This document shows, piece after piece, positions 2,980-28,148 of a stretch of DNA of 64,000 bases; the stretch's first letter is position 1; each line of letters starts with the position of its first letter. This DNA is from Diprion similis (taxonomy: Eukaryota > Arthropoda > Insecta > Hymenoptera > Diprionidae). The notes under the pieces are model-generated. The model searched no databases and was not told the DNA's origin. It worked only from the letters and a program-made list of their open reading frames with translations. The stretch covers positions 5,704,001 through 5,768,000 of the forward strand of contig NC_060116.1 of NCBI RefSeq assembly GCF_021155765.1, given 5' to 3'. Both the position numbers and the translations under genes were made by a program.

Positions 2980-4995
2980 ATGGAGGTAACGTTTTTCTCC
3001 GCCATTCCATGATATTCGATTTCCACGCGAACTTTCAACGGATTTAAAATCTCGTATCGATTTTCAGGCGAAGGCAGTCATCTGTCTGCTCTGTGTCTGT
3101 GTTCGGATCATCTCCAGCGATCACGAGAGTCTGGAGAAGACCGCAGCGGTTGTTGAAACGGATTCTTCAGAAGTCGACTTCAAGCGTCTCGAGAATGAAT
3201 ATGCAGTGGGTAACGTATCGGAGAGGATTCAAGTCTCCGATTCGAACTCATCGAGGTCGGAAACCCCCGTAGAAATATCCACGGATACGTCACTGACGCC
3301 GAAAACGGACGGTGCGAAGGAATTCAAGCCGAGCGTACATCTCGGAGAGATCGAGGAATTCGAATCAGGGAACTCGAGTCCCTTCAACAAGCCGAATCAC
3401 TTGAAATTTGAAAACTTTTTATCGGTCCAATCGGAGACTCAGGATTGGCAAAAAAATCCGTCGAGAAAAAACGAGACGAACAATTTGAGCCAGAATTATT
3501 ACAACTATAACGAAAACTCTCCGCCCTCGGAACCGGGCTTCTTTCCGTCTGCGATCGCCGGTCAAAATCAATATTTTCGACCACCTATCGTCACCGGCGG
3601 GGCTTCTTTCGGCCATTCGAACCCGTCGTATCAGGCCAAAAATATTCCGAAATTATTTCAAAGTTCGCCGCTGCTATCACCGCCGTTTCAGAGGCCTGAT
3701 TATTCCCTGAATTCCCCCGATAAAACCTCGTGGTTCGAAAATCCGCCGTCCCGCGATATTTCACAACAGTTCGAATATCCGTCGTCTTTGTACCGTGACG
3801 AGGTGAATTTCGTGACGCCCTTTGACGGGGGTAAAAATTTCGAATATGAAAAACCACCGCCAAGTTTCGACGCTGGTGAGTTTCCGGTTGTGAAAAGCCA
3901 TAGATTTCCATATAAGTTTTATCAGGAAGCTTCACACTTTTCGAACAGCAACTTTGAATACCTTCCGGATGATCCAGTTGTTCACACTTTACCCAGGGAA
4001 CGAAGGTACGCGTTATTTATTCTCTCGGGATCACAAATGAAACTTAATATTCAGCGATGTATTTTTTTCTTTTAAATTCATTCCAGAGTGTCACCATGGA
4101 AGAAAATCGTGCATCTAATAGGCACGATTTTACCGTTTGGTCTTCTTCTCGCAACGCTGTCACCGAATATTGTTCAGATTGGCAATTCCACGTAATTATC
4201 AAGTCCAAATTCTCGATTCAAATATCTTTATTCATTCGACTAAATCAATTATCTTGCTTGTCTAACCAGCGAAATACTCCGTGCAAAGTTTTCAACGCGT
4301 TTCGACTTACGCGTGACGAATGGAGAAAAATAGTTATATTTAAATGAAATTCGGAAAAAGTTTGGATCGTATAAAATACACGTTAATATCGTTGAGTAGT
4401 TTTGGCTAAGTATTTCGTTGCCTGAACAGTAAAAAATTAACTATTAAAATTAAGAATTTACAATTCCAATTATGTTGAGTTAAAATTAGCATGAAAATAA
4501 AAAAGGTAAAAACGATTGATAACCGATTTGAAATTTGCAGAGAATCGTCTATACCTCTGTCAAAATTGAAAGACATCAATTTACCACCAGAGCACAAGAG
4601 CTTGCGAATGGAAGAACTGATTTCCTGTGAGGATAAAAATATCTGCGAAATGATATTGGCCGGAAGTAAACCGAAGTCTAACATGTTGCAAAATATTTTA
4701 TGGAACTTCGTGATGAGGTGAGCCATAGCTGCATCGTTGATATAATTCCAAGTCAACAGAAAAAAAACGATTGAATATCCTCGACTATTTTGTCACTTTC
4801 ACAACCGGATTTTAATTGAGTTTTAAGTATTCCGTGTTGGCCGTGCATCAACGGGTCATACGGGTCAAGTAATAACAAGGTAATAATTGTTTCACGTTAT
4901 CCCGCAGGACGTCTGAAGAAACAGCAAAGCATAACGGACTGCGTGAATTGTTCCAGTCAGTTAAGAAGAGGGATTGTAATTTGATAACTTGTTAA
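2980..4995 (+). CDS. Secreted/single-pass membrane protein with C-terminal four-cysteine module (cluster member 1)
   Basis: Five exons give one phase-consistent frame: 2980-2985, 3068-4005, 4087-4191, 4541-4717 and 4908-4995, encoding 437 aa. A two-codon first exon (Met-Glu) joins in phase 0 to a hydrophobic signal peptide (KAVICLLCVCVRIISS). Residues about 20-310 are Ser/Asn/Pro/Phe-rich and look disordered. A basic RERR precedes a hydrophobic segment at about 322-345 that occupies its own exon. The C-terminus has C379-X5-C385 and C432-X4-C437, and the protein ends exactly on the last cysteine. AATAAA follows at 5107-5112, 112 bases after the stop. The cysteine module and its phase-2 intron match the genes at 14434 and 22128. 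Function and family name are unknown to me; it may act in the secretory pathway or at the cell surface. The exon 1 choice is the weakest part of the model. Confidence 0.75.
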
Positions 4996-5106
4996 ACTCG
5001 TCGGTGGCAGGCCTGGAATCTCGGAATGAATCAAGTGGCCGACAACGATTAGAATTAGAAGCAACTAGAAAAACGGGGAGGGGTAATACTATTATATTTT
5101 TTTCAA

Positions 5107-5112
5107 AATAAA
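5107..5112 (+). terminator. Polyadenylation signal AATAAA, cluster gene 1
   Basis: Canonical AATAAA hexamer 112 bases after the TAA stop at 4993-4995. Confidence 0.5.
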
Positions 5113-8100
5113 CCTCATATAAGTATAATATTAATTCCTTTTTCCACGCGTATTTTATAATGTATACCTATAAAGTGTACAGTAAGCGTTCTCATTTCTA
5201 CATCCACAATATTTGTAAGTCCCAATATCTCACCACACGTCAATAAATTCCTGATCGATCATTTCAGACGTGATTGTTTTTCTGACAATATGCATACCGA
5301 TCACGTCCGTCGGTTTTTCGGTTACCAGAAATTGGAACATTAGCGTAATCCTCAGATTGAGCATTAGGTGTGAAAAAATTTTCTTTGTTATGTATTTGAA
5401 ATGATTAAAGCACAAAAATTTATATACGAATCTATGAAAATTTCTCAACTTTGTTAGTATTAGTTATTAGATCTTTTGTATTAATGAAACTATTCTGTAC
5501 AGCGATTCACGAATCTGAGTTCTCCCGTATTCGCGGAATTAAAACAGGTGAAACGCATCTTTTCCTCTCGCTTTTAGCTTGTAATTCGAAATGGTTGTAC
5601 CTTGTACGATTACGCGAGTCGACGTGAAGGGAGAAAAAATTGCATGTCGTATAACCGGGAGTGATGAGACATGACAAGAAATGCATGCAAATGTAATTCG
5701 TCAGAGGCGATGTCAGGGCCGTAATGAGCGTAGCGGTATTTTCGCGATTCTACATAGGTAGACGGTGGGATCGGTAGGCGGCGCGGAAGTCGATTTGAGG
5801 ATCGAGAAACTGGTATTATTACACCGAGATGGGTGGACTTTCGAGTAGAACTATGAAAGGAAGGAGAAATGTTCTCTCAGTCAGATTTCAGGTGAATGAG
5901 AGAGGACGATTATCGCCGGCGTTAGTCGCAGGTCGGTTTAATATAAAACCTGCAACCGGCAAACCGAGCAGCTCTTGCGGTATGAACCGCGACTTTCTAA
6001 ACGCACGTTCACACCGGAAAATTGGTCCTATTAACTTGTGACTTTTGAACCACGAGTTACACACGTCAGGAGCACGTTTCTGTCTGTCTGTCTGTCTTTT
6101 TTTCTTACTTTCTTTCTCTCACCCCCGTTAAATCCTGAACATTCGCGTATCTGCCCGGTGACTTGCTCCATAACTGGCGAACGTTGGCATGTTGTCGGAT
6201 GAAGTTTATACCGGTAATCGAATTCGATCCATCAGATCACACCGTGCAGCACCTCGAAACGTGACGGCCTGGATATCTGATGTTGCCATGGTCTTATCGT
6301 TATACCTCTACATCGTGTAAATTTCGCACGTGCCTTAAATAAAGCGTATCAGGGTTAACGATAAAGGGGTGAAAATAGGGGTAAAAAAAAATATCTAAAA
6401 TTTTCACCCCAAATTGTACAATTTATTTATTATTATCCTTTATTCCGCGATCGAAAGGTCGTGAGAATACATTTATTTCATTTTAAAAATCGAACGACTC
6501 GTCAGTACGAATTGGGTATATGTATGTAGTATGTACCTATAATCAAACCGGTCTCTCCACTCGCCGTCCGACTGCATACGTACCCGTCACTACTTAAGTA
6601 CAGGTTTGACTCCGTCACGAGAGATGTCGCCGCGTGACTGTAATTCTCATATCGTTTCTCCGTCGACTGGCTTCGTTGAAGAGCTCCGCCCCAGTCACGA
6701 TAATCATTATCGTTATTACTGTAATTTGCTTCATTCGAATTCGTTTAATTTCCAATTTGGATATAATGTGCCTCAAGATATTTGAGCCATTGTAAAAAGA
6801 TCATTTCAAAAGCTTGAAGGGAATGTGATTTTTTTTTTGCACTTTTATTCACGTTTGTTAATTTTTATTTATTTTTTTATTTTTATTTTTGTCAAGAGAG
6901 GTCCCAAAATTCTTTGAAAAAAAGTAGTTGACTTACCGTTTTGATAAAAAATAAAAATCTATGCTCAAGTTTCATTAATTGTAATTTTTAAAGTTTGACA
7001 ATTGCATGACATAACTTTCATACATCTTTTCAAATTTCGCAGTCATCTTTCTGAGAATTTCATGAACATTTATTGGTAATTAATTCAGCTGCACTCAATT
7101 TATCTTACATCGATTTTTTCTACATCCGAGAAATTTATCAGTCTTCAGACGGAATTCTGTGATACAGTTCGGTTAAATTTGTTGACATTTTTGAAAATGC
7201 AGTCAGGCCGGACGCTGCGTCCGAAATGTTTGAAATTCGCATTTTTGAATCTAAGGTCAAATGATTTACCAATATTTTACTGTTTTGGCCGGAATGTTAA
7301 GAGACAAAGATTTTGGTCGTGGGCCCTCGTGCTATTACATTAGAGAAATAGCAAAAGTTTAATATCGTTTTAAAATATTCATGCTAATTTCAAGCGCGTA
7401 TATATCCTTGAAATATCCTTCTAATGATCTACAATAATAAGATACAGGAAGAGATGAATACCACACTGGAGTTAGCAGCTATAATTTACGAGATTTAGTC
7501 ACGGTCTGAAACCTTGTAGAGTAATAAAGCCCATCACCGTAATTCATCCAGAATTCGATACTTGTCCATGAAATTCGATATCGAACCGATGATTTCAGTT
7601 CCGAACGAATATGTATAAACTGCGTCCAATATGTATAACGTAATTTATAAATTACGGAATCGTGTTTAGTTTGAATTTTTTTTTATATACAATGCGTTGA
7701 GAAATCAACGTGCCGATCCACCAAGGCAAAGATGTTTGCTCCTACATACTCGTATATGGGCGATTCTCACCGCTGCGCGCTGCTGCAGATCTATAATGAA
7801 CTATGTACTGTCCTTCGCTGTTAATTAATCGTACCCATAAATAATCGGATTACAATTTAGAGAAAAAAAATAAGTCAGATACATAAATAAAATTAACCCA
7901 CTTCGAACGGCAGCGGGTGAAAAAAAAGCTTATTTTTTTCATCAAAATTAATGCCGTATCAATTGAAACCATGTTTTTGGCAATGACGTGTCATCTGCAT
8001 TTACATAAAAGACACACCGGATAAACAAAACAAAAATTTGGCGTTTTTTAGGTATCACCGGATGACCGTATTCTTAGTCTTCAATAGATCACTTTAATTT

Positions 8101-8763
8101 GGTAAATGCTTCAACAGGAGCTTAGTGAACAGGCGGCAAGTTCTTATTACCGCACATGAAAGCAAAAATCCGTTTGAACGATCGAGTAAAACAATTTGCA
8201 ACGAATTATTACTAATAAGCAGCCCTGAATTATAAAAAAAATTAAAACGAAGGTTCGCGTACCAAATTGTAAGAAAATTCTACGGAATTTTGAGAATCGC
8301 AATGTTTTATCAAGCAGGTCTATCGCGATTTTGAAACAGTAAGTTGCGAGAAATGTGGCTGCTTGTTCTCGAAATTCAAGATACACGTAACCGAAAGTAG
8401 TAGCATTTCAATAGTTTCGTGATACGTTTCTGCCGAATACTTGATTATAACGTTAAAATATCGTCAAATAAATCGATCGAGTAATTCTACCTGAATTTAG
8501 AATCCACGAAATAACAACTGAAAAGTTTCAAAATTCGTCATTCAGCAAGCGGGAGCGAAAGTTTCGTGAATCATCTCGACCCAATACTTGATTCTGCGGG
8601 AAATTACTTTCATCGTAATGGCAAAAGCCATTTTTCCTGAAATTCAAGACACAAGGTATCTTCTACGTACACAGAGATATCTGTAAATACTAGAAAACGG
8701 TTTTCTGAGTGGAGAAACTTTATGTTTCCATGTCGTAGGAAGTTTTTCTTTTCTTTTTTACAC

Positions 8764-8766
<3 letters not shown>

Positions 8767-8796
<30 letters not shown>
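8767..8796. repeat. (TC)15 dinucleotide microsatellite
   Basis: An uninterrupted TC run of about 30 bases, seen directly, in intergenic DNA. Confidence 0.95.
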
Positions 8797-8797
<1 letters not shown>

Positions 8798-11700
8798 AAG
8801 CGACGATTCTCTCGATGAGAAATACAGTAACGTGGAAATAAATATTCTTAAATAAATAACAAGAGAAGTCTCGAAAAAATTGCAGCTGAAATTGCAAGGC
8901 CTGATCGTAAGTATCACTCATTGTCAGTTCAACGTCCGGCTTCCCGATCGTCAATGGTTGGTTAGAGGTGTAATATCAACACGTGGTTGTGGGCCGCGCG
9001 GCTACTTTCACCGTCAGACATATAATATCGGCCCTCGGGATGACCGGAGGCTGTGTGTAAGCTCATCCGTTCGAAATACCAGGTTACAAGGAATGCCTGG
9101 GGGGCGAGAGAATCTGTGATAAAAGCGTCTTTGAGAAGAAACGAGCTGCTTTGAGATGACCATGAGCCAGTCTTTCAACTTCCCGTTTTAAAACTCGTTT
9201 CGAGCTGAAATAATAAAAAAAATAACAGTAATAACGATGACAACATCATCGTCTTAATCGAACTTTGGAAGCACATTGTCAAATTGGTAATGAGCTACTA
9301 AAAAAACAACGATAATAATAAATACCAGGTACAGTTTTTTATCAACAGACCTTGGATTCACGACCGGTAAGTTATAACAATTTTTATTGTATTTTTAATA
9401 ATCTTCCTATTTAAATAATTCGATCAAAGTGAAAATCAAATTAATTCTGAGTTTGGAAAGGTCACGGTGATTGAAACCAAAATCACAGACTGATGATTGG
9501 ACAGACGAAAATGATCGTTCAAAACGCGAATATCTAGTAAAAACTCGATTTTTAATTCTCGGTTTGATACAATAACGTTCTTTTTCCTAGACGAAAATTT
9601 TCTTGGGCCCCAGTTGTGATAAAGTGAAATTAAAAATACGAGTAAAAATAACGCGGAACTGCAAGTACACGCGATACAAATTGCGTTACGATGAAGGTAC
9701 ATACATGTATACATGTATACAGGTATAGAGTCGGAGGCGAACGGCGGTCAGACGCAAAGGCAATGGCCCAGTGGAGTCTGACCCAATTACTCCGTCGACT
9801 ACTTTCACTCATCGGATGCACGCCTTGGATTGCAAGAAACAAAAAAATGAAGCCTGAAACACTAAGATTGGGATGTCCTGCTGAGCGTTTGAGTTACACC
9901 TCGAGGAGGCGGGAGCCTTTTAATTTTCCATCTCTTAGTGACGTATTCAAACAATCTTTCAGCCCGACACTTTCTCACGTCAAGTGCTTGGACCGTATCA
10001 AGGGGCCGCATATTTTTACTACGTTTAAGCGCTCCATTCGACATTCCAAAAGCGCGCAGGTGCGCAGAACGCGACTTGAAAGGGTCAGTTTTTTTTTTTT
10101 TTTTTTTTGCAGCGGAACAGTTTCTGAACTGGATAAAGGATTTCCTAAGCTTGATTTGAATACGGAAAAGAGATCAAGTTTGGATATACCTTTGGGCAGA
10201 ATAAGTTATAGTCAGCAACGGAGATCGAGACGAGTATAAACTGAAATAAGTGATAATAGTCACGTTTGATTCTCCGGAATGCCGGCGGTAGAAACTTCAC
10301 TTGTGATTCTTGACCGTTTCTCTTATTCCATAAAGTAAACCACGAGAAGGTAGCGATACGCGTGCATGCGTGTTCATGTACAGAATTATTATTAAAACGA
10401 CAACGTCAGACAGTTTAAAACGCGTGTTGAACAGCTGTCAAGATCTTTTGAGGCAAAATAAAATTGTTATAGTATACGATATGAAAAAGCGAAAAGAATC
10501 GATTTACACATTTCCTGAATTAATAATCGATTAATCGCGTGCTCAGAAGTATATGGTGAATAGAATTTTTTGAACATAAGTAAATCTTTTCAATTCAAGA
10601 ACGCAAATTCCGGAATGCGGTAATCATATTCCGCGGCAATCAAAGCAGATATGCGTAAATTATACGCCTAATGGTTGTACAATTTTGCATATCATTAATA
10701 CGATGTTAGAATTTGAATTCCAGAAACTATTGAACTCGATTTCAAGAGTCATTATCTGCCTACGCGTAAACTTTTATTGTTCAAACCATGCGAGATAAGG
10801 CACAGGCATGGGAATAATGAGAGGCGGGTTGGTTATTGGCAACACGTAAGATGGATGGTTGCCATATACCGGCGTGTCAAGGAAAACAGGTGCGCTGTTC
10901 CAAACAATGCGGGAAGATACGTGGAAACGTCCTTCGTTTATTGTTAGACCAGCCGCGTAGGAACAATCGTCGCATTAGCATGATTGCTTGTAATTCTCAT
11001 CAGTTTGGATCGCTTATAAAATCCAGCTAATAAAGGCGTGTCCGAATGAGCAGCCTTCGCCAAATATTTAATCGAGCATAAGTTCGATAAGTTCATGGTT
11101 ATTCATTTTATAATGTCAAATATCGCTGGTCCCCCGACCGAGATGTTAAAAATAGACATATCAGATCCCCATCGCGTAATTGACGATTTTTTTAATCGCT
11201 CTTCGTTTTTAATCCCAAGTAACTTTTTACGTCGTTGAGAATAGGAAGTAAATTGCTTTGGGTTTATCTTAATTTAGCTTCACGATTGCTTACGCAACAC
11301 GTGTGAAACAGGTGCGGCTATACGTGCTGTATAAGTTATCTTAGAAACAAGGTATTGCTTGGTGCAGTTTCTTCAACTTTGCGCGAGAAAGTTTTTGTCA
11401 AGTAGATACCGCATTAGGCATTCATTCGCTGCAGTCTCTCGACGTCGCGATGTAACGCGAAGAGTTCGATTACGATTAACTATTATACAAACACGAGATT
11501 ATGATTATTTTCATTTTTTATTACCAAGTCCTGGGGCATCCGGCTGTTAATAGACAAAGTTTGATTGTGCTTTTAAAAATTCAAGGACGCTAATAAATTG
11601 GGAAATAAAAACGTCGGAGGTTAAAATGGGGAGTAATTATGCTGGTGATGGGCTTTGGACTTACGCTCGTGTTAACAACGACGCATCTTCGTGACTGTTT

Positions 11701-12421
11701 TCGCATTTGAGAATGAATGGGACCGACAGTCTGAAGTAAAAGTTAGGAAGAAAGAAAAAACCGCGAATATAATTTTAGAAAAACGTTTGTTCAACGATGC
11801 TTAAAAAATTCGATTTTTATCCATTATGGAGATGAATGATCGTAAAATTTTTTCAGGTGATCTCTGAAAATCTCTAGATCCCAAAAATATTAGAATCTAA
11901 TTAGAGCCATCAAAGTTGAATCATTTTCAACGTTCTCACTGTAAATCCTTTTTCTCAAATTATCTATAACTCAGCTTGGGTTATAAGAATTTACTCGATT
12001 TCATTTCTATCGAATAGCAAAATATCGTTTTATTCACGTTCACCAGCGTTTGCGCAAATGACATTACTGTAAAATTTTTCGCACCATTTTATTTCCTTTC
12101 CCAAACTTTTCATTCAGACGGTGAGTTTCATTCATCCTGAACCGGAAACGGTGATGAAAACGTGACCCTGAAACCTTGATATCTCGCCTATGCGCAAAAT
12201 AATCCGTCGTTATTTAGAGAATAAATCAGGACAACTAAAGCCGGAGGTCTAAGAAAGTTTGGCCGTAGTTCGTTTTTCATTTTTTCAATTTATTTTCTTA
12301 ATTCATTATATATCGAGCGAATAAAAGGCTCTGCAGAAACGTAGAAAGAAATCTGAATTTCGAAAAAACACGTAATTGATAAACTAATTTTCTGCGTTAT
12401 TTCGACGTAGTTTATCGGTAG

Positions 12422-12667
12422 TTCAAACCCCGAGGTCTTCCTCCTGGATGCCCTCAGGGTTGCACGAGGACGCTGCAGGCAGCAAGCCCGTGTACCCAGG
12501 TATGTGCGATTGATGCAAACGTTGAAGACCTTTCACTTAAGGTCTCTGAACTCGGCCGAGGAACTACGAGGACACTGGCTGGAGGTTCGCTCGTGAACTT
12601 GAGATCTCCCGGAGATGATATCCTTCGGAACCACGAAATACAAGACTTGCCGTACTCACGGCTGCAG
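12422..12667 (+). CDS. Candidate orphan exon (82 codons, phase 0 at both ends)
   Basis: An acceptor-like GGTAG ending at 12421 is followed by 82 stop-free codons and a good donor (CTGCAG followed by GTAAGA) at 12667/12668. The translation starts FKPRGLPPGCPQGC, contains four cysteines (residues 10, 14, 24 and 28 of the exon) and continues with a hydrophilic stretch ending in LPYSRLQ. CPxxC recalls the start of leucine-rich-repeat N-caps, but no repeats follow in the window. It could equally be a 5' UTR exon of the gene at 14434. The polypyrimidine tract is poor, and chance openness over this length is quite possible. Confidence 0.2.
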
Positions 12668-13649
12668 GTAAGAGTTCATCATGCGGATGCCCTCCCCTTT
12701 TCTATCGCTGCAGCATAAAGCGGAGCGAAACGCTTTCTCGGTGTTGAACCGATCGACCGACTTAACAATACGATGTTGCTGCTGCCGTCGCCGCGTAAAA
12801 ACCGTCGAAATCGAAAATTGGAAAGAGAACGTTCATTTGCCAGATTGTAAGGTTTCAGTTTATTCGGGTCGAGTTGCGCAGGTAGTAGCAACACGGCAGT
12901 TCCGATAAAATTCTATGCGCCGCAGATCGTCTATATACGAGTTTTTTCGAACCAATGAACACGAGGAACTCACTCACACATAATAATTAATATGATGAGA
13001 AAAGAAAACCTGCAACCTTCATTCATTCAAACGAAATCGACTGGTTGACCCATTTTAGAGCTCAACGTGTCGTTTTTTTTCCTCGTCTTTCCGTTTCACA
13101 TAGGTAGAAATTAATATAATATTATGCGAATTTTTGTCTAATTTACTTTTCACATCAATGGACTATAATTGTTTTTCTGTCTAGCAAATATGATTGATAA
13201 CATTTTTCGATCTTTATTTCTTCTTCGCCAAGCTTTATTGCGATTCACTTGCCTGTCGTGAAATTAGCTTAAATGTGGATCAAATTTTTAATCGACCATG
13301 ACAGTGACTTTAACCGGGCACACAGAGAAGCGATTCGTAATATAGGCAAAGGCTAGTCGCATCACGAATTGCTTGATATGATTGAATTAGCTCTTAACGG
13401 TGATACCAATATGTTTTAAAAACGTATTTCTTTGACGATTCATTTCATCTTCTTTTCTTCTACTTCTTCTTTAACCCTGTTTGTTTTGGTTAGAAAAAGT
13501 TATCGAGTATATAACAAGCATATTGCAGCATAGAACGAACCATGCTAGTATAAAAAAAAGTCTCAAAATTCGCTGTCGATATTAGTGCAACCGATACCAT
13601 CCGCAAATCTATATTGCCCGCGTTTCGCGATTACGTGCTAAGCCTGTGA

Positions 13650-14006
13650 ATGGGATGCAGATCGGGCTGCAAAAACGTTGACAAAATTGACAATGCCAAT
13701 CGAAAGTGTTGCAAGGATATTTATGCATGCACGATGTGCACCTTAAACGAAAACCAAGTCGCTCCTCCGCGATTCGCTCGGCTTGTAAACGATCTTCCTG
13801 GCCTAATGCAAGTCGCACGATCCATCGAGTACATATACCAACTGCATGCAACTAACGCGATGTGCAGAACCTGCACGATTAGCCCCTGCAGGCTGCAGAA
13901 CTCTGCACAGCTAGTTCAGACCGTTGAGAGTGTTGCCTGCAGCAGCAGCAACAGCAGCAGCAACAGCAGCAGCATGGTGCTCATCGGTAGACAGTGGCTA
14001 AGGTAA
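13650..14006 (+). CDS. Candidate cysteine-rich ORF, 118 codons
   Basis: ATG at 13650 opens a frame ending in TAA at 14004-14006. The peptide begins MGCRSGCKNVDK and has about twelve cysteines, with a Ser/Asn run encoded by the interrupted CAG-type repeat at 13939-13973. There is no signal peptide and no recognised domain. The cysteines largely reflect a high local density of TGCA motifs, so base composition alone may explain the pattern. It lies just upstream of cluster gene 2 and may be part of its control region. Confidence 0.15.
   Translation: MGCRSGCKNVDKIDNANRKCCKDIYACTMCTLNENQVAPPRFARLVNDLPGLMQVARSIEYIYQLHATNAMCRTCTISPCRLQNSAQLVQTVESVACSSSNSSSNSSSMVLIGRQWLR
13939..13973. repeat. Interrupted CAG/CAA trinucleotide repeat
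   Basis: About eleven CAG/CAA triplets in a row, visible directly. This is the usual interrupted pattern of insect opa-like repeats. Confidence 0.9.
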
Positions 14007-14433
14007 AAGAAGTAGGTCGGTGAGAAGCGACATGAGGAGGTAACCGCGAACTCGCGTCAGTCGCGTGAAGATATTCCTCGAGTGAGCAGGTGCTACGTCA
14101 AGAGAGTCGATCATACTGACCTGCCGATTCTTGCCGATCGCCGATTAATTTATCGCGTGATTTTGCTCCGTTGTGTTCGACGTAAATTGGGGATAGTAAA
14201 AAAAAAAAAAAAAAAAAAAGAAGGAAATATTGAAAATTAGAACCCATTTTTGTTTCACACTGAGCAATGGGTCCTTAAATACCAAACGACATTTGTTTCC
14301 TTTCCTGATAATAAGAATCCGGTCACTAAAGTTTAGTGAATCTGTTGCAAAACGTACATTTTTTGAAAATATAAATTCCTCCGAGAGTGCAGACGTAAAT
14401 AAATACATCACCGGAAGTATTCAAACCACAGCG

Positions 14434-17400
14434 ATGGCGAGGTTTGAGGTAAAAATAATTCTACCCCCTCATACCGTTTATTAATTTCATAATGCATTTA
14501 ATTTTTCAGGTAGTGCAGGGCTTTTCCCCTCTTTGGGGTAACTAACTTTGTCAGTTATCCGATCACCTTCCTCCACGTGTTCCGATATTCTGTTGGGAAA
14601 AGAATGTATCAATCACGTAATTAGTACTGATAATTTCTTTACGAATCCTTCGATGATCGCACTGATCTTTCCAATTCTGATCGACCGGTGTGCGTATTTG
14701 ACGAGGGAAAGTATTGGCCAGATTCTGCTTCACTTCCGGAACGTGATGACACAGTTCTAGCGATGTAATCATCGATATTGCGAGGGGCGAACTCACGGCG
14801 AGAATTTGAATTCGTTACGTATCTTCACCCACACGCGGTGGTAAAACGGTGGAATCGGAATTGCGAAAATTAAGTAAAAGCACGATGAGGTTTCAAACTC
14901 TTTTGCGCAAAACGACGACGTTTTACGTGCCGAGAATGTACGATTAAGAGATATTTAGCGAAAGTAATCTCAATTTCCACGCCCCGGTGAAGAGAAGGAC
15001 CATTTACTGCAATTGAGGAAACAATGGTATAAGTCCAGAATAACCCGTCGACTAGTTAGCCTTAATTGGTGGGTAATTAATGTCGGTCAAAGTGTTGCAA
15101 TATGTAGAGCGTTAAGTATGCACGGTCGCAAGACGAAAGGCACACGCGACATGTGTGCAGCATATCTCCAGCGATATAGCATCCCAATTACAGTCTCGAC
15201 CTCAGATTGTCCGAATTCCACTTCGTTGACCAAGTAGCAAAATTTCTTTACTCGATCGTTAAGAGCTGTAACCTTAAATGTCCCCTTTTCATTGTCTCAT
15301 TACTTCGTCAATAAATTACCGATTCTCTGTCATAAACTTGAGTTCTAAATCACAGTAACGAGGCTAACGATCTGCGGTGATATTCACGCTATTCCATTGG
15401 AGATTGTAACGCTGCAGCGGAAGAAGAGTCGTGATTTCTAAATTTCACTGAGTTGATAATCGCACGCGTTTTAAGTGCACGCGGTGTTCCAAGCCGCCAT
15501 TCACGTCTCGGATGCGAGTTATCAGTGACAAATAACCAGGCTCGTTGAGTTACATCCGACGAGACACGCGTTTGTACCCGCAGCTGCACGCGATGGTGTG
15601 TATAGAAAATTGCACAGGCAAATAAGACGGCGAGATTATTTCGTACCTACACACACTGGACTTTCGAAAATGTTTTGAAACCCATTTTATATGCGTGTCA
15701 TTGCAACGCGGTCGACACGGTGAAATAAGCATGAAATAGGAACACGCGCACAAGTCGTAGAGATTAGGATATTACCCTGTGGAATGGATCGAATACACGT
15801 ATAACGGGGATAGAAGTCATTCGGTACAAAAATCAATCATCGGTTAAAATGACAGCTGAATCATGGATCTGTGTAGCAGCTGAAAGGTGTCCCATTGACC
15901 TAGTGAGCAGCCTACGTTGCCGTGAATGAAACAATATAATTTACCGCCGAATCACCCTGATAATGATGTCGCTATATAAGCTATCGATTATACTGTCTAT
16001 GGCGGCGCCAGCACATGATCGATATCTTAGAAATTACCTTTCGTTTCACATTGATATTTTATTTCGCAGGTAGTGCTGGTCCTCGCTTTGGCGACGGTCA
16101 TCGTCACCTCGACGAGTGTTCCTCCGGCGCCGAGCTACACGAGAACAATGTTAAAAGTGGCGAGAAGTTTGCCAGGGGAGACGGAAGAGGTGAAGGTCCG
16201 AACGAGCGAGGGTAATCTGGCGACTTTGATAGTGAAAAGGAGAGACCACCGAATAGTTCAGACGGAAGGAGGAACCAGTGGAACGAGCAGCGAACCCGAA
16301 AGGCGTTTGCAGAATGAATCGAACGTGGTCTCGGAGGTTAGAAAGTCGCAAAATCAGAACGAAGAGGCTCAGAGAAGACTGCAGGAGAACGAGCAGGTGG
16401 CGAAGATTCGTAGCCAGGTAACGGGGCCAGTTACCGATCAGGAAGGGCCGTCGAAATTCGAACGGAAGAATCTTAGCCAGGTCGGTGAGGGCCTGATGGA
16501 GTACGGAAGCTGGACGCCACTTGGCGGAGGTTCGGAAAGGGTTCTGGAAGAGAAGCTGCAGGCAGAGGAGCCCTTATACACGAATTGGAAACCAGTCGAG
16601 ACAGGGCTGCACCGATCGGCGAATTTCGCGCGTTACTCGAAGCCGAATTTCGATCATCAAGGTCTGATATTCGCCGGAAGAAACGTGGAGAAGAGATCCG
16701 ACCGGGAAGTCTCGTTCGAGAAATTGAACCCCGCGATAATAGTCGGGAATCAAGATGAGCGACACGCGTTCCTGCCGAACCAGCCAAGACCGGTGACGAG
16801 GACGAACGTCGGCGCTAATGTCTACAAGAATAGAAACGCGAAGAATGTACCAGCGGAAGTGACGATAAGGTCGGAGATCAACGTGAAACCGGCTTCCAAG
16901 AGGTCGCCGATGACCTTGGACGCCGACGGGACGCCGACCATCCACGGACAACGAGTGCCTGATGACCCGATGGACAAGATCCAGACGTGGAGGAACGCCA
17001 GAGTAATAAACAACAAGCTGATACCAGAGAGCGCAACGGTCGTTACTCTCGATCCTTCGAGCAATTTTTACGCAATTGACAAAACGGCCGATCGTCAGAG
17101 GTTCGAGAACTTTTTCGACGACGTCAATCGACGGTACGGAAGGAATTACGACGCGGAAAAGGCGAACGTGTACTTCGAATGGGACCCGAAGAATTATCAA
17201 AACGACGCTCTCAAGGCCGAGATCTACAACGCGGCTGGTGACGGGTACAATTCCAACGTTCAAAAGCGAATGCTGCACCCGGACAGTGTCACAAATTACC
17301 CAAACTCGCAAAGTTACACTCCGGGAAGTCAGAAGATCGCCCCGGTCGCTTTAAAGCCAGGAGTGAGAGCCCCGGTTCTGCAGTATGCTCATCCGGAATT

Positions 17401-19737
17401 GGGTGTGCAGCCGGCGAAGATCGTGAAGAACGAGGTACGGCAGCCCGAAAGCTACTCGGAGAGTCAGCCGACGTTCACCTCGGAGACTCGACAGAAGAAG
17501 AAGTACGTTCTGAACGATAAAAACGTCGTGGACTCGTACTCCTCGAAGTACTATTACCCTAACCACCGTTTCTACGGACTGAAACCTCAGAACGACCCGC
17601 CATTCTGGGTGAAAATATCGGAAAACCTTAAGAACCAATTTTCTACCGGTGTTGAAAAGGTCTCCCAACTTACGCGTCCAGTTTTCGACCCCCTGGTGGA
17701 AGCGACGCAAAAGATCTCGAAGAACTTGGGTCTTTCCCAGGACGTGGCGCAGAACAAAGTTGGAACCGTTGCCTCGGGTTCGTCCATTCTCATCCCTGCT
17801 CTGGGTCTCGTTGCTTCCGGCGCTGCGCTGGGAATAGGCGCTGTCGCAGTTGGCAGATACCTGGACGTTGACGTCCTGAAGAGGTCAGGCGAAGACGAGA
17901 TTGATCTGGAGCATAAACGAGCCCTCGAAGCGTCAGCGAAGAAGCTTCCTGAGTACGGAAATGAGCCGAACGGACCAAACAGTCGGGTCGAGGGTGAGTC
18001 AAGGACGTGGCAAGCGTCGTTCGCGAGCCCAAATCGGGCGGCTAGTTTTATTCAGACGTTTGAAAACGAGCCAGTCAATGTAGCCGAGGGGGAAGAGCGA
18101 AGCCAGAGCCGAGAAGACGACGACGGTGTCTTTCTGGTACTCGAAGAATCGAACGATTCGGACAGGATGGAAAACCGTGAGACGAAACCGGTTGTTGACG
18201 AGCTGGAATACGTGGAGACCGGAAGACACAGACGAAGCATCGATGGTCCCAACGTCCTAAGCTTGGAATCGGAAGTGGCTGATTGGGTGCAAGACAAACA
18301 GTTTCAAAGAAAGAATTTAGATAAGATAACGGAAATTGTGGAAATCGACGTACCCAGAGGCGGAAATATCGACGTTACCGATGTGCAGCTGCAGAGGACG
18401 AAGAAACCCGAGTCTCAGAATGCGGGTACGATCCTTGTCGTCGAGGGTGATGAGAACGTGTCGGAAACGGCGGATTTCGATCAATCCGCTGTCGAAGACG
18501 TGGCGAAGATCGTCGGTGAAATGATAAAACAGTCGGAGAGCGCGGAGGGGGAATCGCAAGGTCAGAAGAGGTCGAAGCGCAGTTTGGGAACGGATCAGGA
18601 GCTCCAGGACACTTTGCAGAATTTGGAAAACGCGGAAGTCGCGGAAGCCGGACACGTCGAGGGTGACTGGGCGAACACACCCTGCGCCAAGAGGATATTC
18701 TGCGACGCGATGATCCTCCGGGGTCCCGACGCTGTGATTTTTATGGAAAAGAAGATGGCGTCCCTACTGGCATTGTGAGTACAGAGAGATGTCACGTGAT
18801 CAAAGCCTCTTGAATCCCACGGTCCGACTAAAACGTCCTGCGATAGCTCGGCGTGCAGAGACTATAGCTAAACAACGACGAAGCATAGAGTCTGAGCGGC
18901 CTCTCCATGTATAACTTTCTTTCAGCTTTCGCTTCGCCGAACAAACGTCCTACTGACTGATTCAACTCTTACCTCCTAGCACAGTTTCACTTCATTGCCC
19001 AGTTTGGATAGTTGGCGCGCAAAAAAAAAAAAAAAAAACTCACTCTGCACGGACTCTAAGTCTCTGACCAATACCGTCGAGTCGGATTACGTCGGCTTGA
19101 CGTTGCGCGCTAGAGAAGCTAACGAATTACAGAAAAGCAAGAAGGTTTTTTATGACCTTACGCGTCAAGAACGCCTCCAACCAACTAGGAACATAACACG
19201 ATCCATGCACTATTAGCGTTTTTAAGCAAACGTAGTTTTCTAAGCCTGTAAACAAATCAGCCGCTTGCCTCGTCAATTTTGCAATAATTAACGAGATAGG
19301 GCAGAAAGCACCGTTTGTGACCACCCTTAAGTATAATGTTTTGCTTGTTTTCAGTTCTATCAATCTATCCCATTATTGAATTCATTACGAAAACATACAT
19401 TGCAAATAATATTAAATTCTTTCGTAATTATCTGTTTAAAAAGCAATGATTATTATTTGCAAGCACGTCCTTATTTGCATGCGATTGATATGGCCACAAA
19501 TGGATCAACGCATGGCTACAGACGGTACTAAGGTGGTAAAAAACGGTGCAATCTGCCACTTCACCCCGTCAGGTTTAATGCACTAAGCCTTAATATTTCC
19601 ATATTTTTTTCAGGATACAACCGAGCGCCGCAAACCAGGTGTCGAGTCACTTCGAAGAAGTCATGGACGCTATTCGCAGGCACGATTGTTCCGGATTCTT
19701 TTGCCCCCAAGCGAGGCCGGGAAACGTTTTCTTCTAG
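14434..19737 (+). CDS. Very long secreted/single-pass membrane protein with C-terminal four-cysteine module (cluster member 2)
   Basis: Three exons encode about 947 aa: 14434-14448 (MARFE), 16070-18774 (901 codons) and 19614-19737. Exon 1 joins in phase 0 to the signal peptide VVLVLALATVIVTSTS; this exon choice is inferred, while exons 2 and 3 are firm. Residues about 30-570 are charged, low in hydrophobics and probably disordered. A glycine/alanine-rich hydrophobic segment spans about 577-600. Several basic cleavage-like sites occur; the clearest are RHRRS near 18220-18240 and KRSKR at residues 838-842, just before the module. The module is C877-X5-C883 and C932-X4-C937. The intron between the cysteine pairs is phase 2, exactly 23 residues after the second cysteine, as in cluster gene 1. 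A poly(A) signal candidate is at 20262. Function is unknown. It could be a proprotein whose C-terminal part is released by a furin-type protease, which is inference. Confidence 0.8.
14449..16069 (+). other. Intron 1 of cluster gene 2
   Basis: About 1.6 kb. Near 14506 an acceptor (ATTTTTCAG) is followed by GTAGTGCAGGGC, closely resembling the true exon-2 start (acceptor then GTAGTGCTGGTC) at 16070; a donor-like GGGGTAACT follows at about 14537. This could be a decayed alternative exon. A TATA-like CTATATAAG sits near 15971, about 100 bases before exon 2. Confidence 0.4.
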
Positions 19738-20261
19738 CTCGATACTTGGACGCGATGTATAATGTGCGGGAAAAACGTTTCCTCGGCAGTACATCAAGGA
19801 GCTATAGCTGACATATAGCCGATACTTAACAACCGGAGAGATGAAGTTAACCGACCAAGAGAGCGAACCTCTACTCTGCAAAGTATCCATATCTGTATAC
19901 GGTCAGAGAGAAAGTTTCACCGTCTTGACGAGGAGAAGTTGTCATACGGAATCTAATCAGATCGTTCATACACAGTTGGGTGCTTGTTGACTCTTCAATA
20001 TTTTCTTATATTCGGTTTTTCTTTCCTTGAGTCTCTGCTCGTCGTTTTCAGTATTGTACACTCGTTCGATGCTACAGTTGGTTTTTAGAAAGTATTCAAT
20101 GATTCAAATTTTGTCAATGACGTAGTTGCGAAAAACAATTGTTCATTGTTTATACCACGTTCGTATTTTTGCTCTGTTATAATGAGGACGTTTGAATCGT
20201 GCCAATTATGCATCAGCGAATTATTAATAATATCCATTTTTTCTTCACCAATATTCAAGAG

Positions 20262-20267
20262 AATAAA
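20262..20267 (+). terminator. Candidate polyadenylation signal, cluster gene 2
   Basis: AATAAA about 525 bases after the gene 2 stop. Other hexamers may be used instead. Confidence 0.3.
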
Positions 20268-22100
20268 GATTAATATTTAAAGGTAAATTACTACGCTATA
20301 CATATGTAAAGTATTCCAGGTTGAAGACGCCAAATTGTAAATAGCCATCACCGTAATATTCCTATTTAATACACATTCTTAACTTAAATTATCACAAAAC
20401 AAACGCATAGCTTATAGGATAGCTGTAGGAGGACCAAGATTCGTTAAAATGGTCAAGTCGGAATCGGCGAATACCCGTTTTCAAATCACCTCCTTCGTGT
20501 AAAGATTACAAAACTGTAATCGCAGTGAACAATTTGTCGTATTTCATGTATCGCGCTCAAAATTTTGCTGTAGCAAAATTATTAGTTAGGAAAATAAAAT
20601 GAGGCAAATTTTTTTCCGGGGCACGGAAGAGATGGACGAGAAAGTTTCGTCGCCAACAAACTGTTATCGGTAATCATGGTTCTCGAAATACATCGAGATT
20701 AGAACGTAAGCTAGTTGTAAGCCAAATAAATCTTATACCAGTTAACTAAATAATACTGTACTACTATATATAATATATATACTATACATATATTAGTATA
20801 ACACTGTGTGCGCAATATGTACTGAAAAATTGACAAATAAACTACGTTTGTTTTTTACAAAAATTAAAAAAACGAGATTGAATATTCATGTTCAAACTTC
20901 TATTTTTCACTCTTTTTACTCAAGACTTAAGGGAGTAAACAAAATTGCAAAACACAAAGTGGACAAACAGGAATTTTTATTGACGCTTGTGCGATCTCGA
21001 ATTACTGACGAAACTATGATTGTTTGTTCGAAAAATATTGCATCAGCAGAAGACCTGTTCCGCGGATAGTGGCTCTTGCATGAGCAAATTCCGAAGGGAT
21101 CAAGCAATTTCACCATTCTACAACTGACGGGTTACGTCGATACTTCATGGCTGCAGCATTCCGTATTGAATAAAAATTCAAACGAATTAATCAGCCTCAA
21201 ATTCCAAAGATTTCAATTGAAAGAGAGTTCGTTGTAAGACAAAATCAGTTCCCTACAATTTCGACAAATCGATTTTGATTTACAAACGGTCTTATTTGGC
21301 TGAGAACAGCCAGTCCAGTTAAATTAATATTTCGGGAAACTCCTTACGTTTTTTAAAATGTATATCCGACAATCATAATGATATCGAGATATCAAATTTC
21401 AGAGTGTGAAGCAGGAATTGCAAATATTCAGCATAAATCTAAAATTACAACAACCTTTAGTCAGCTGTTGAGCCTGTTAAGTTCGTTGATGCATTTATAT
21501 GGCCACTTAAGCGAGTTCTTCCAAAGTATGCGAACATCTTTTACAGACATGTTTCGCTCGTTTAACCCGATCGGCTACGATGGCGGTAATTTCATGTAAT
21601 CACGCACGCGTGGTTAACTAAGTGAAGAAACTGCAAGGACTAACAAGACAACTTATAGTCCTGAAACAACTACATTGTCACACATATATTGTTAAAAATG
21701 AAGAAGAATGGGAAAAGTTTCGAGTTTTCTCTACTTATTTCCAGCTAAGTGAAAGTAACCCTACGCTGAAAGCATACGACTCGGTTCCAAAGACAATAAA
21801 CCTAACAAGACCAGGGACAATAATTTGAGTAATTATATCGCATTTTACGACATAGAAAACAATGCTTTGCCGGTTAGATGCATCGCGAAGAATACGTGGT
21901 GGGAAGAATGAATGGCCAGACTATAAGCTCCTCGGAAAAGATGACATATCCTCATTTTTATTTACACAGTTGAAGTCAACTTTTTCCACTGATCTCAGCG
22001 TATGAGCTTTTACTTTTCTACACACACGATCAAAGTGGACCTGATTAATTTATTTCCAATTAAAGTATTTTTCTATTGAAGGGCAAGAACATCAAAGACT

Positions 22101-22108
22101 TATATAAG
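22101..22108 (+). promoter_or_regulatory. TATA box-like element before cluster gene 3
   Basis: TATATAAG lies only 19 bases before the ATG at 22128. With usual TATA-to-start spacing, transcription would begin at or just after this ATG. An in-frame TGA at 22077 rules out an upstream start in this exon, and the next in-frame Met would lose the signal peptide. Either the leader is nearly absent or the element is not used. Confidence 0.3.
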
Positions 22109-22127
22109 AGTAGCGAAAACTTTGAAA

Positions 22128-23758
22128 ATGATTTGTTGTTCGCGTATTTTGATATTCGGTGTGACAGTCGCGGTAGCATTTGCTTGGGTCCAAGAAAACG
22201 ACTTCGTAAAAAACCGTGGAGTTCGAGTCCAGGTCGGATCCATGCTTGCTGAAGTTGCAAAAGAGTTAATTCAGCGATCGGCAACAAATAGCCAGGTGAG
22301 ACAGAAACGATTCGGAATAAATCAACTCTGATGTTTGTGAAAAATTGATTGATGATATTTTTCCCGAAGCATGATCGGTAATTGAAAACGCCTTACAGGT
22401 ACTGAGTTTGAACTTATCAAATTTGCTGATACTTTTGGTACTCAAGGCGGTCGTTTTCGGGGCTGGATACATGGGGCACCATGGATACAAAACGCGCGAG
22501 TTGGACAATGGTAATTATTACATGTATAAACCGAGTTAGTGACGTTGATGTATCAAAACGTTGAATCAAAAATCTCTATTTTTCATCTTTAGAATACCTT
22601 AAGAAGTCGATTTAAGTGAAAATCTGAGTTTCTTGATGCTGTATTAACAGTTTACTAGATTTCAAGTAATCCTAAGTTTTCAGAATAATCACTTTTTTCA
22701 AAGATGCATCATCGCAATAACCTCACAAACTTCAGTCTGATTAATATACAACTTTCTGTAATGGTAATAACGTAATCCAAAAGCGATGTAACATAGACAC
22801 GTGATACTAAATTCATTTTCTCTGCACAGAACCAATAGTTTCCGAGAGTGAGGTAGCCCTGGCCTTGGGCTACCTCGTCGGTGACAAATGTCTTTACAGA
22901 GCAGCCTGTGAAGTCCCTCACAAAGCCAAAGAATACCTCGGAGCCGCCGAAATGCTTCTGCAAACCTTCAAGCTCATGCCACAGTATGTTTTTGGTCGTT
23001 GCAATACGCAAGTCACGTCAAGTCAAACGTTGAATTGAACGTATATCACCTGAGATTTGATACGTAAATGCAATGACTAGTTCATTGAAGCACGTGGCCT
23101 TAGAAGGAATCTATAGTCAGTTTTTACTGGCTGCGTTAAATTTCATTTATTTTTAATACAAATACCCGGAAAAAGTTTTCATTCGCACGATAATGATGCC
23201 AAGAAATGTATTCCTGTAATCAAATTAGTAGTTATCGTAAGAATACATTTCGTGATCTTATTTACGCACGAAATCAAATTTTTTTGGATATTTTTGTTCG
23301 GAATTGCGTGTGGAATTACGCTGATGGCGCCATTTTGGAATCAGTGATGCGTAGGCTTTGTAAAATTCAAAATAAGTGACATTTTACTTCGATCGGTAGA
23401 GACTGACTGTATAGCATCCTCTTAATACTCTAAGCTATAATTTACCGTGAATCGAGTTATTTCAGGTGTTGGTAATGTTTTTATGACTGGATATTGGCGG
23501 GCTATTTTTTACTTTTACATTTACTGTACGCTAGGTATGATTGGTCAGTGTATGATATAGTGACGTCGACTTGACGTGTTATAAGCTGTAATAGCAAAGT
23601 TATTGCTTGTTCACAGATCTGTTCCCGTGGAGCTCGACAAGTACGAAAACACTATTCTAGAGCTAAGGAAAGCTGTGGAATATGGATCGGCCGGGAAGTG
23701 TCCGCCGCAGTATACTTGCAAGAAGGAAAATATTGACAAGTTTTTGAAAGACGCGTGA
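22128..23758 (+). CDS. Small secreted/single-pass membrane protein with four-cysteine module (cluster member 3)
   Basis: Four exons encode 191 aa: 22128-22295, 22399-22510, 22830-22983 and 23617-23758, with donor/acceptor phases 0, 1 and 2 all consistent. The N-terminus MICCSRILIFGVTVAVAFAW is a signal peptide. Exon 2 encodes a hydrophobic segment at about 60-80 (LLILLVLKAVVFGAGY), followed by a His/Gly/Tyr-rich turn. The module is C114-X5-C120 and C173-X5-C179, with an amphipathic Ala/Leu/Glu-rich helix between. The intron in the module is phase 2, 24 residues after the second cysteine, against 23 in the two larger genes. This is the compact form of the family: it lacks the long disordered region of members 1 and 2. 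AATAAA lies at 23830-23835, 72 bases after the stop. Family and function are unrecognised. Confidence 0.8.

Positions 23759-25239: not shown

Positions 25240-28148
<2,909 letters not shown>

Follow-up and report, generated by a model that had tools for sequence, protein, structure and literature searches.

Does a single family unite three genes whose proteins have unrelated bodies and a similar four-cysteine module at the C-terminus? The question is raised by a 64,000-nucleotide stretch of the Diprion similis genome (contig NC_060116.1; C12:5704001-5768000 in our contig numbering), hereafter called the window, for which an earlier note had described three such genes of a family it did not recognize. 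The genome searched comprises 269 Mb in 60 contigs, and its DM4/12 and Osiris genes mark it as that of an insect. Among Pfam families, the modules matched only DM4_12 (PF07841; InterPro IPR006631), also written DM4/DM12 or DM4/12. This is most likely the family in question and it has clear members in the same genome, while the observation of the module itself holds.

We lean toward a joint explanation in which genes 1-3 would be highly diverged insect DM4/DM12 members that are secreted, carry a disulfide-bonded module on bodies that a convertase cuts off in genes 1 and 2, and play a role in the apical matrix. Gene 3 is well supported as a member. The membership of genes 1 and 2 is marginal and draws on gene structure together with weak similarity. 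Rather than a novel type of protein, the three genes most likely represent a diverged version of a family that is already known but has no assigned function.

Gene models and four-cysteine modules

All three gene models lie on the forward strand and were rebuilt from the DNA with GT-AG introns throughout, yielding exactly the protein lengths given before (437, 947, and 191 amino acids, aa). Their features are listed below (window positions for nucleotides, protein positions for residues).

2980..4995, + strand: gene 1, 437 aa, read from splice sites, phases, and an open frame of 361 aa
2980-2985, 3068-4005, 4087-4191, 4541-4717, and 4908-4995, + strand: the five coding exons of gene 1
4626..4992, + strand: module of gene 1, with CEDKNIC in exon 4541-4717, a phase-2 intron at 4718-4907, and CNLITC in exon 4908-4995
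Layout of protein 1: N-terminal hydrophobic stretch, cysteine-free body rich in Ser/Pro/Glu/Asn, RERR at 312-315, hydrophobic segment from 322, module at 379-437
14434-14448, 16070-18774, and 19614-19737, + strand: the exons of gene 2, 947 aa
14434..14448, + strand: putative first coding exon of gene 2 (MARFE), without independent support, followed by a phase-0 intron
16070..18774, + strand: main exon of gene 2, an open frame of 907 aa with a charged body that lacks cysteine
Features of this main exon: hydrophobic segment from 578, RHRR (724), KRSKR (838), first cysteine pair CAKRIFC at 877-883
19614..19737, + strand: last exon of gene 2, with the second cysteine pair CSGFFC and the stop codon, preceded by a phase-2 intron at 18775-19613
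22128..23758, + strand: gene 3, 191 aa, with exons 22128-22295, 22399-22510, 22830-22983, and 23617-23758
Layout of protein 3: N-terminal hydrophobic stretch, hydrophobic segment from 57, module CLYRAAC ... CPPQYTC at 114-179

The cysteine pattern described earlier (CX5C ... CX4-5C at the C-terminus) was reproduced. Genes 1, 2, and 3 encode C-x5-C, then 46, 48, and 52 residues, and then C-x4-C, C-x4-C, and C-x5-C, respectively, and past residue 20 these are the only four cysteines of each protein. The module is not strictly fixed, since either four or five residues separate the cysteines of its last pair. Hydropathy also reveals the N-terminal hydrophobic stretch of each protein, which we read as a putative signal peptide, and the single further hydrophobic segment that had been reported: one internal 19-mer per protein has a mean Kyte-Doolittle value of at least 1.3 (starting at residues 322, 578, and 57), and these 19-mers reach transmembrane strength (mean 1.96-2.16). 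In genes 1 and 2 the bodies are long (about 300 and 850 aa, respectively), lack cysteine, and fall on the disordered side of the charge-hydropathy measure. A similar four-cysteine module on otherwise unrelated bodies is thus a description that the rebuilt genes support.

The MARFE exon is the weakest part of the gene 2 model. No candidate for a first coding exon passed the stricter scan, and the looser scan returned five, among which MARFE was picked because it completes the signal peptide. Genes 1 and 2 then have in common a phase-0 intron just after their first codons (ME and MARFE; window positions 2985 and 14448). By eye, no such intron was seen near the start of the DM4/12 cluster genes discussed below. 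If the MARFE exon is right, this intron may mark genes 1 and 2 as sisters.

The family in the same genome and its intron

A search of the genome with PF07841 (curated Pfam cut-off 22 bits) gave 21 matches, 18 of them above the cut-off. The 21 comprise 17 on C12, the contig of the window (at 11.02-11.07 Mb), and four elsewhere, of which C2 holds three and C7 one. The cluster on C12 is about 5.3 Mb away from the window.

C12:11018584-11065466: DM4/12 cluster of at least 14 genes (L007, L009-L017, L019-L022, L024, L025, and L027)

Three of the matches (L024, L025, and L027) add the second exon of a gene that another match already represents, and L026, for which no second half was found, did not enter the profile, leaving 17 modules. 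They share with the window genes the four C-terminal cysteines and the C-x5-C spacing of the first pair, and the family resembles the window genes further in its N-terminal hydrophobic stretch, in the clustering of its genes, and in the position of a phase-2 intron.

In the 14 split DM4/12 genes that were assembled, a phase-2 intron lies between the cysteine pairs, 22-27 codons past the second cysteine. In genes 1, 2, and 3 a phase-2 intron lies 24, 24, and 25 codons past it. The first intron survey sought phase-2 donors only, and a later scan tried all phases. The second exons of the split genes were chosen by splice signal among frames holding a cysteine pair, and the presence of the second pairs is therefore partly assumed. 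Of the 14 split genes, the structure search found 12, all but L016 and L017; in the all-phase scan, 12 of 14 had phase 2, and no family gene appeared with phase 0 or 1 in the range of 20-28 codons. Widening the range to 14-39 codons brought up L010 with phase 1 at 63.8 bits, below its 90.4 bits with phase 2, and a 23.6-bit phase-1 candidate covering part of the L010 gene.

The intron is not universal, as L007, L018, and L023 have none between their cysteine pairs. In L007, a member of the C12 cluster, both pairs sit in a single exon, which could reflect loss of the intron. L018 (C7:9683567-9683836) is a dispersed, diverged DM4/12 exon, and some 750-900 bases upstream of it (locus position 593) runs a strongly hydrophobic frame reminiscent of the hydrophobic segment of gene 2.

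Gene structure and profile combined

We next consider a scan that makes no use of the gene models and combines the two-exon structure of a module gene with a family profile from which the window genes were excluded. In 104 kb of real sequence it returned six candidates. Gene 3 scored 19.7 bits, gene 1 9.7 bits, and gene 2 9.5 bits. Another two were the first half of gene 3 joined to wrong second exons (10.1 and 8.4 bits), showing that much of the score of gene 3 sits in its first half, and the sixth was unrelated (-2.4 bits). The scan was extended to more real sequence, namely 70 kb from the family cluster, 20 kb surrounding a C2 gene, 23 kb downstream (3 kb of it overlapping the window), and two 10-kb controls, where it picked up 12 family genes as well as unrelated candidates scoring -0.2 and -1.2 bits. 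With all phases allowed at 20-28 codons over 234 kb of real sequence, the highest score of an unrelated candidate was 6.3 bits. In 9.6 Mb of order-2 Markov sequence (150 x 64 kb), which preserves triplet statistics but not the make-up of real exons, there were 72 candidates, the best at 7.0 bits.

Gene structure plus profile thus separates the three genes from unrelated real and simulated sequence. The same numbers bear on the idea that the modules are due to chance, that is, to mis-joined exons and a coincidental cysteine pattern. The gene models are based on splice-site reading only, which leaves some room for this. We nevertheless regard it as very improbable, since all three genes have the full structure, their scores were unreached in the simulated sequence, and open frames of 361 and 907 aa are long.

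Similarity to the family by sequence

Against DM4_12 itself, none of the three window genes reaches the Pfam cut-off. The gene 3 module scores 17.6 bits (expect value, E, of 0.0062) and the whole protein 15.6 bits, and the gene 1 module alone scores 13.8 bits (E 0.1), all below that line. The C-terminal 111 aa of gene 2 gave no DM4_12 match at E up to 10. Two other hits, TonB_2 (E 0.035) and DUF4320 (E 0.17) for the gene 2 main exon, were below cut-off and were dropped.

Against a profile built from the 17 DM4/12 modules of the same genome, with the window genes left out, gene 3 scores 19.3 bits (single-sequence E 8.1e-8), a value that none of 1000 cysteine-fixed shuffles equaled. The other two are marginal, with 8.9 bits for gene 2 (E 1.4e-4; equaled by 4/1000 shuffles) and 8.8 bits for gene 1 (E 1.5e-4; 7/1000). 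When hhalign was run against the family alignment (A3, comprising 15 of the 17 modules, without L018 and L023), gene 3 obtained a P value of 1.2e-5 and a probability of 81%. A profile of the first half of the module ranked the gene 3 exon, and no other, first among 2080 six-frame fragments. In pairwise comparison, the best score with a family member was matched by 0 of 200 shuffles for gene 2, by 0 of 200 for gene 3, and by 9 of 200 for gene 1. The family profile found no match among PDB sequences at E up to 1.

Critically speaking, a number of results weigh against counting genes 1 and 2 in the family, and some against all three. For the whole gene 1 protein, Pfam returned nothing at E up to 10. 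The hhalign comparison gave gene 1 a P value of 0.16 (probability 0.4%) and gene 2 one of 0.016 (probability 2.8%), and the first-half profile failed to single out either gene among the 2080 fragments, so that by sequence comparison alone both lie near noise. Even in the combined scan they stand only about 3 bits above background, given unrelated bests of 6.3 (real) and 7.0 bits (simulated), and a mis-joining of gene 3 also reaches 10.1 bits. The last cysteine pair encloses six residues in 16 of the 17 family modules (five in L021), unlike the four, four, and five of genes 1-3. Finally, a basic site followed by an (F/Y)P motif, found by eye in 9 of 14 cluster genes (the regular expression was too strict for family genes), was not seen in the window genes, and the lone regular-expression match in gene 2 looks spurious. 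The long bodies of genes 1 and 2 and the sub-cut-off or absent Pfam scores likewise set the window genes apart from clear DM4/12 members.

Gene 3 might therefore be the only DM4/12 gene of the three, with genes 1 and 2 forming a separate, unrelated pair of secreted proteins in which the four cysteines are convergent. The low hhalign probabilities fit this, as do the C-x4-C that genes 1 and 2 share, their near-start phase-0 intron (if MARFE is right), and a module tree that pairs them (88/86) on very long branches away from gene 3. We consider it unlikely all the same: the module intron of genes 1 and 2 agrees in position and phase with that of the split family genes, their scan scores were reached neither in the simulated sequence nor by unrelated candidates in the 234 kb of real sequence, and no shuffle equaled the best family score of gene 2. 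The earlier note had held that a profile search placing the modules in unrelated families would speak against its proposal. Our profile searches gave no unrelated families, so that this did not occur; genes 1 and 2 are, however, close to the limit of what such searches can detect.

Relation among the three genes

The label of a simple tandem cluster fared less well. In local alignment, cysteine-fixed shuffles score as high as the real pair in 41/1000 cases for genes 1 and 2, 928/1000 for genes 1 and 3, and 263/1000 for genes 2 and 3; in global alignment the counts are 122, 898, and 344 per 1000. Pairs 1-3 and 2-3 are thus no closer than shuffles and pair 1-2 is marginal. As sequences, the modules do not appear demonstrably related to one another in pairs, and their link would run through the DM4/12 family. 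In the tree of 20 modules (unreliable, with few columns and very long branches), the pair of genes 1 and 2 neighbors L018 and L023, while gene 3 falls among other modules in an open fork, so that the three window genes do not form one group. The tandem arrangement may accordingly not stem from one local expansion. Recent duplication was rejected as an origin, as the genome contains no second copy of the gene 2 main exon (E up to 0.01) or of the gene 1 and gene 3 modules (E up to 1).

Comparison with Osiris genes

Little literature was found under the DM4/12 family name. The domain is described as a protein of unknown function, accounting for 30 of the Drosophila genes classed as having a domain yet no known function (PMC8664486), and a honey-bee table places it among the families whose expression changes over time in larvae (PMC9764631). 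More can be learned from the Osiris genes. In planthopper, Osiris17 and Osiris24 carry both DUF1676 and DM4/12, and their knock-down results in soft ovipositors and deformed wings (PMC12825958). The two proteins resemble those of the window in having a signal peptide, a hydrophobic segment, and a four-cysteine domain near the C-terminus. Osiris genes are further reported to be expressed in cuticle-secreting cells, with cuticle defects in mutants (PMC11151929), and three of them to contribute to the maturation of tracheal tubes, their proteins being located at endosomes (PMC9870157).

Osiris proteins differ from those of the window in possessing DUF1676 and in being encoded in the Osiris array on C2. 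DUF1676 (PF07898) had no match in the whole proteins 1 and 3 or in the C-terminal 111 aa of gene 2 (E up to 10), nor in the gene 2 main exon (E up to 1). Of its 35 matches in the genome, 34 lie at C2:8.158-8.293 Mb and one on C1, and the window on C12 is outside the array. Membership of the window genes in the Osiris family was rejected on the lack of a DUF1676 match.

The Osiris array encloses one DM4/12 exon, L023 (C2:8286890-8287150), which shares its strand with most of the Osiris exons. By analogy with the planthopper genes, L023 may be part of a gene that combines DM4/12 with DUF1676.

A possible mechanism and role

How could such proteins work? Each would probably enter the secretory pathway through its signal peptide. 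The C-terminal module, probably helical, would close as two disulfides and serve as a constant cap for folding, docking, or export. The body upstream would be the variable part, different from gene to gene and, in genes 1 and 2, long, cysteine-free, and disordered-like. A proprotein convertase could cut off this body at RERR (312) in gene 1 and at RHRR (724) or KRSKR (838) in gene 2, which are basic sites of the furin type. Furin-type sites also occur by chance in basic proteins, and their use here is putative. Cutting would leave C-terminal fragments of about 122 aa (gene 1) and 105 aa (gene 2), in a size range similar to that of protein 3 once its signal peptide is removed (about 171 aa). 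The proteins would most likely act in the apical extracellular matrix of epithelia, in the cuticle or its deposition.

We place genes 1-3 in cuticle or apical-matrix formation, if provisionally, because of the Osiris links, namely L023, the planthopper phenotypes, expression in cuticle-secreting cells, and tracheal maturation. The honey-bee larval table that includes DM4/12 also speaks for such a role. Two considerations count against this part of the proposal. The Osiris17 and Osiris24 phenotypes may be due to DUF1676 rather than to DM4/12, and if the hydrophobic segment spans a membrane, the module would be cytoplasmic and devoid of disulfides.

The latter consideration leads to a different role, in which the proteins would be Osiris-like, membrane-anchored in vesicles or endosomes, with a module that works in the trafficking of matrix cargo and not in the matrix itself. 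The one internal 19-mer of transmembrane strength per protein would suit such an anchor, and so would the endosomal location of Osiris proteins (PMC9870157) together with the DM4/12 domain in two planthopper ones (PMC12825958). However, DUF1676 is absent from all parts of the window proteins searched, and a cleaved signal peptide would put the module, with the only cysteines past residue 20, in the reducing cytoplasm. We view this role as possible and rather doubtful. Fast-evolving surface proteins of immunity or reproduction, which the earlier note had suggested, are improbable. The single-copy body of gene 2 and the strong divergence of the modules would be compatible with them, yet no sequence pointer to either process was seen in the genes, and the characterized DM4/12 carriers give wing and ovipositor phenotypes (PMC12825958).

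Returning to the secreted, matrix-bound DM4/12 proteins that we favor, a more speculative extension can be sketched for genes 1 and 2. They could be a separate branch of a DM4/12 superfamily in which very long, disordered, convertase-cut bodies have come to end in the module as a short cap at the C-terminus, an arrangement allowing one locus to supply large matrix proteins of unrelated sequence with a common export-and-release tail. This is tentative, and we would not call it probable.

Should the membership of the three genes be true, the DM4/12 family would be wider than its Pfam profile, and the module intron would be a usable marker for diverged members. Should the bodies truly be cut off and bound to the matrix, the locus would offer an entry point to DM4/12 function in insects.

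Genomic neighborhood

Downstream of gene 3, a C-terminal winged-helix domain of ribosomal oxygenase 1 was found at window positions 27225-27656 (E 3.2e-13). The corresponding protein, RIOX1, is the same as NO66, and its presence here supports the NO66 neighbor that the earlier note had named.

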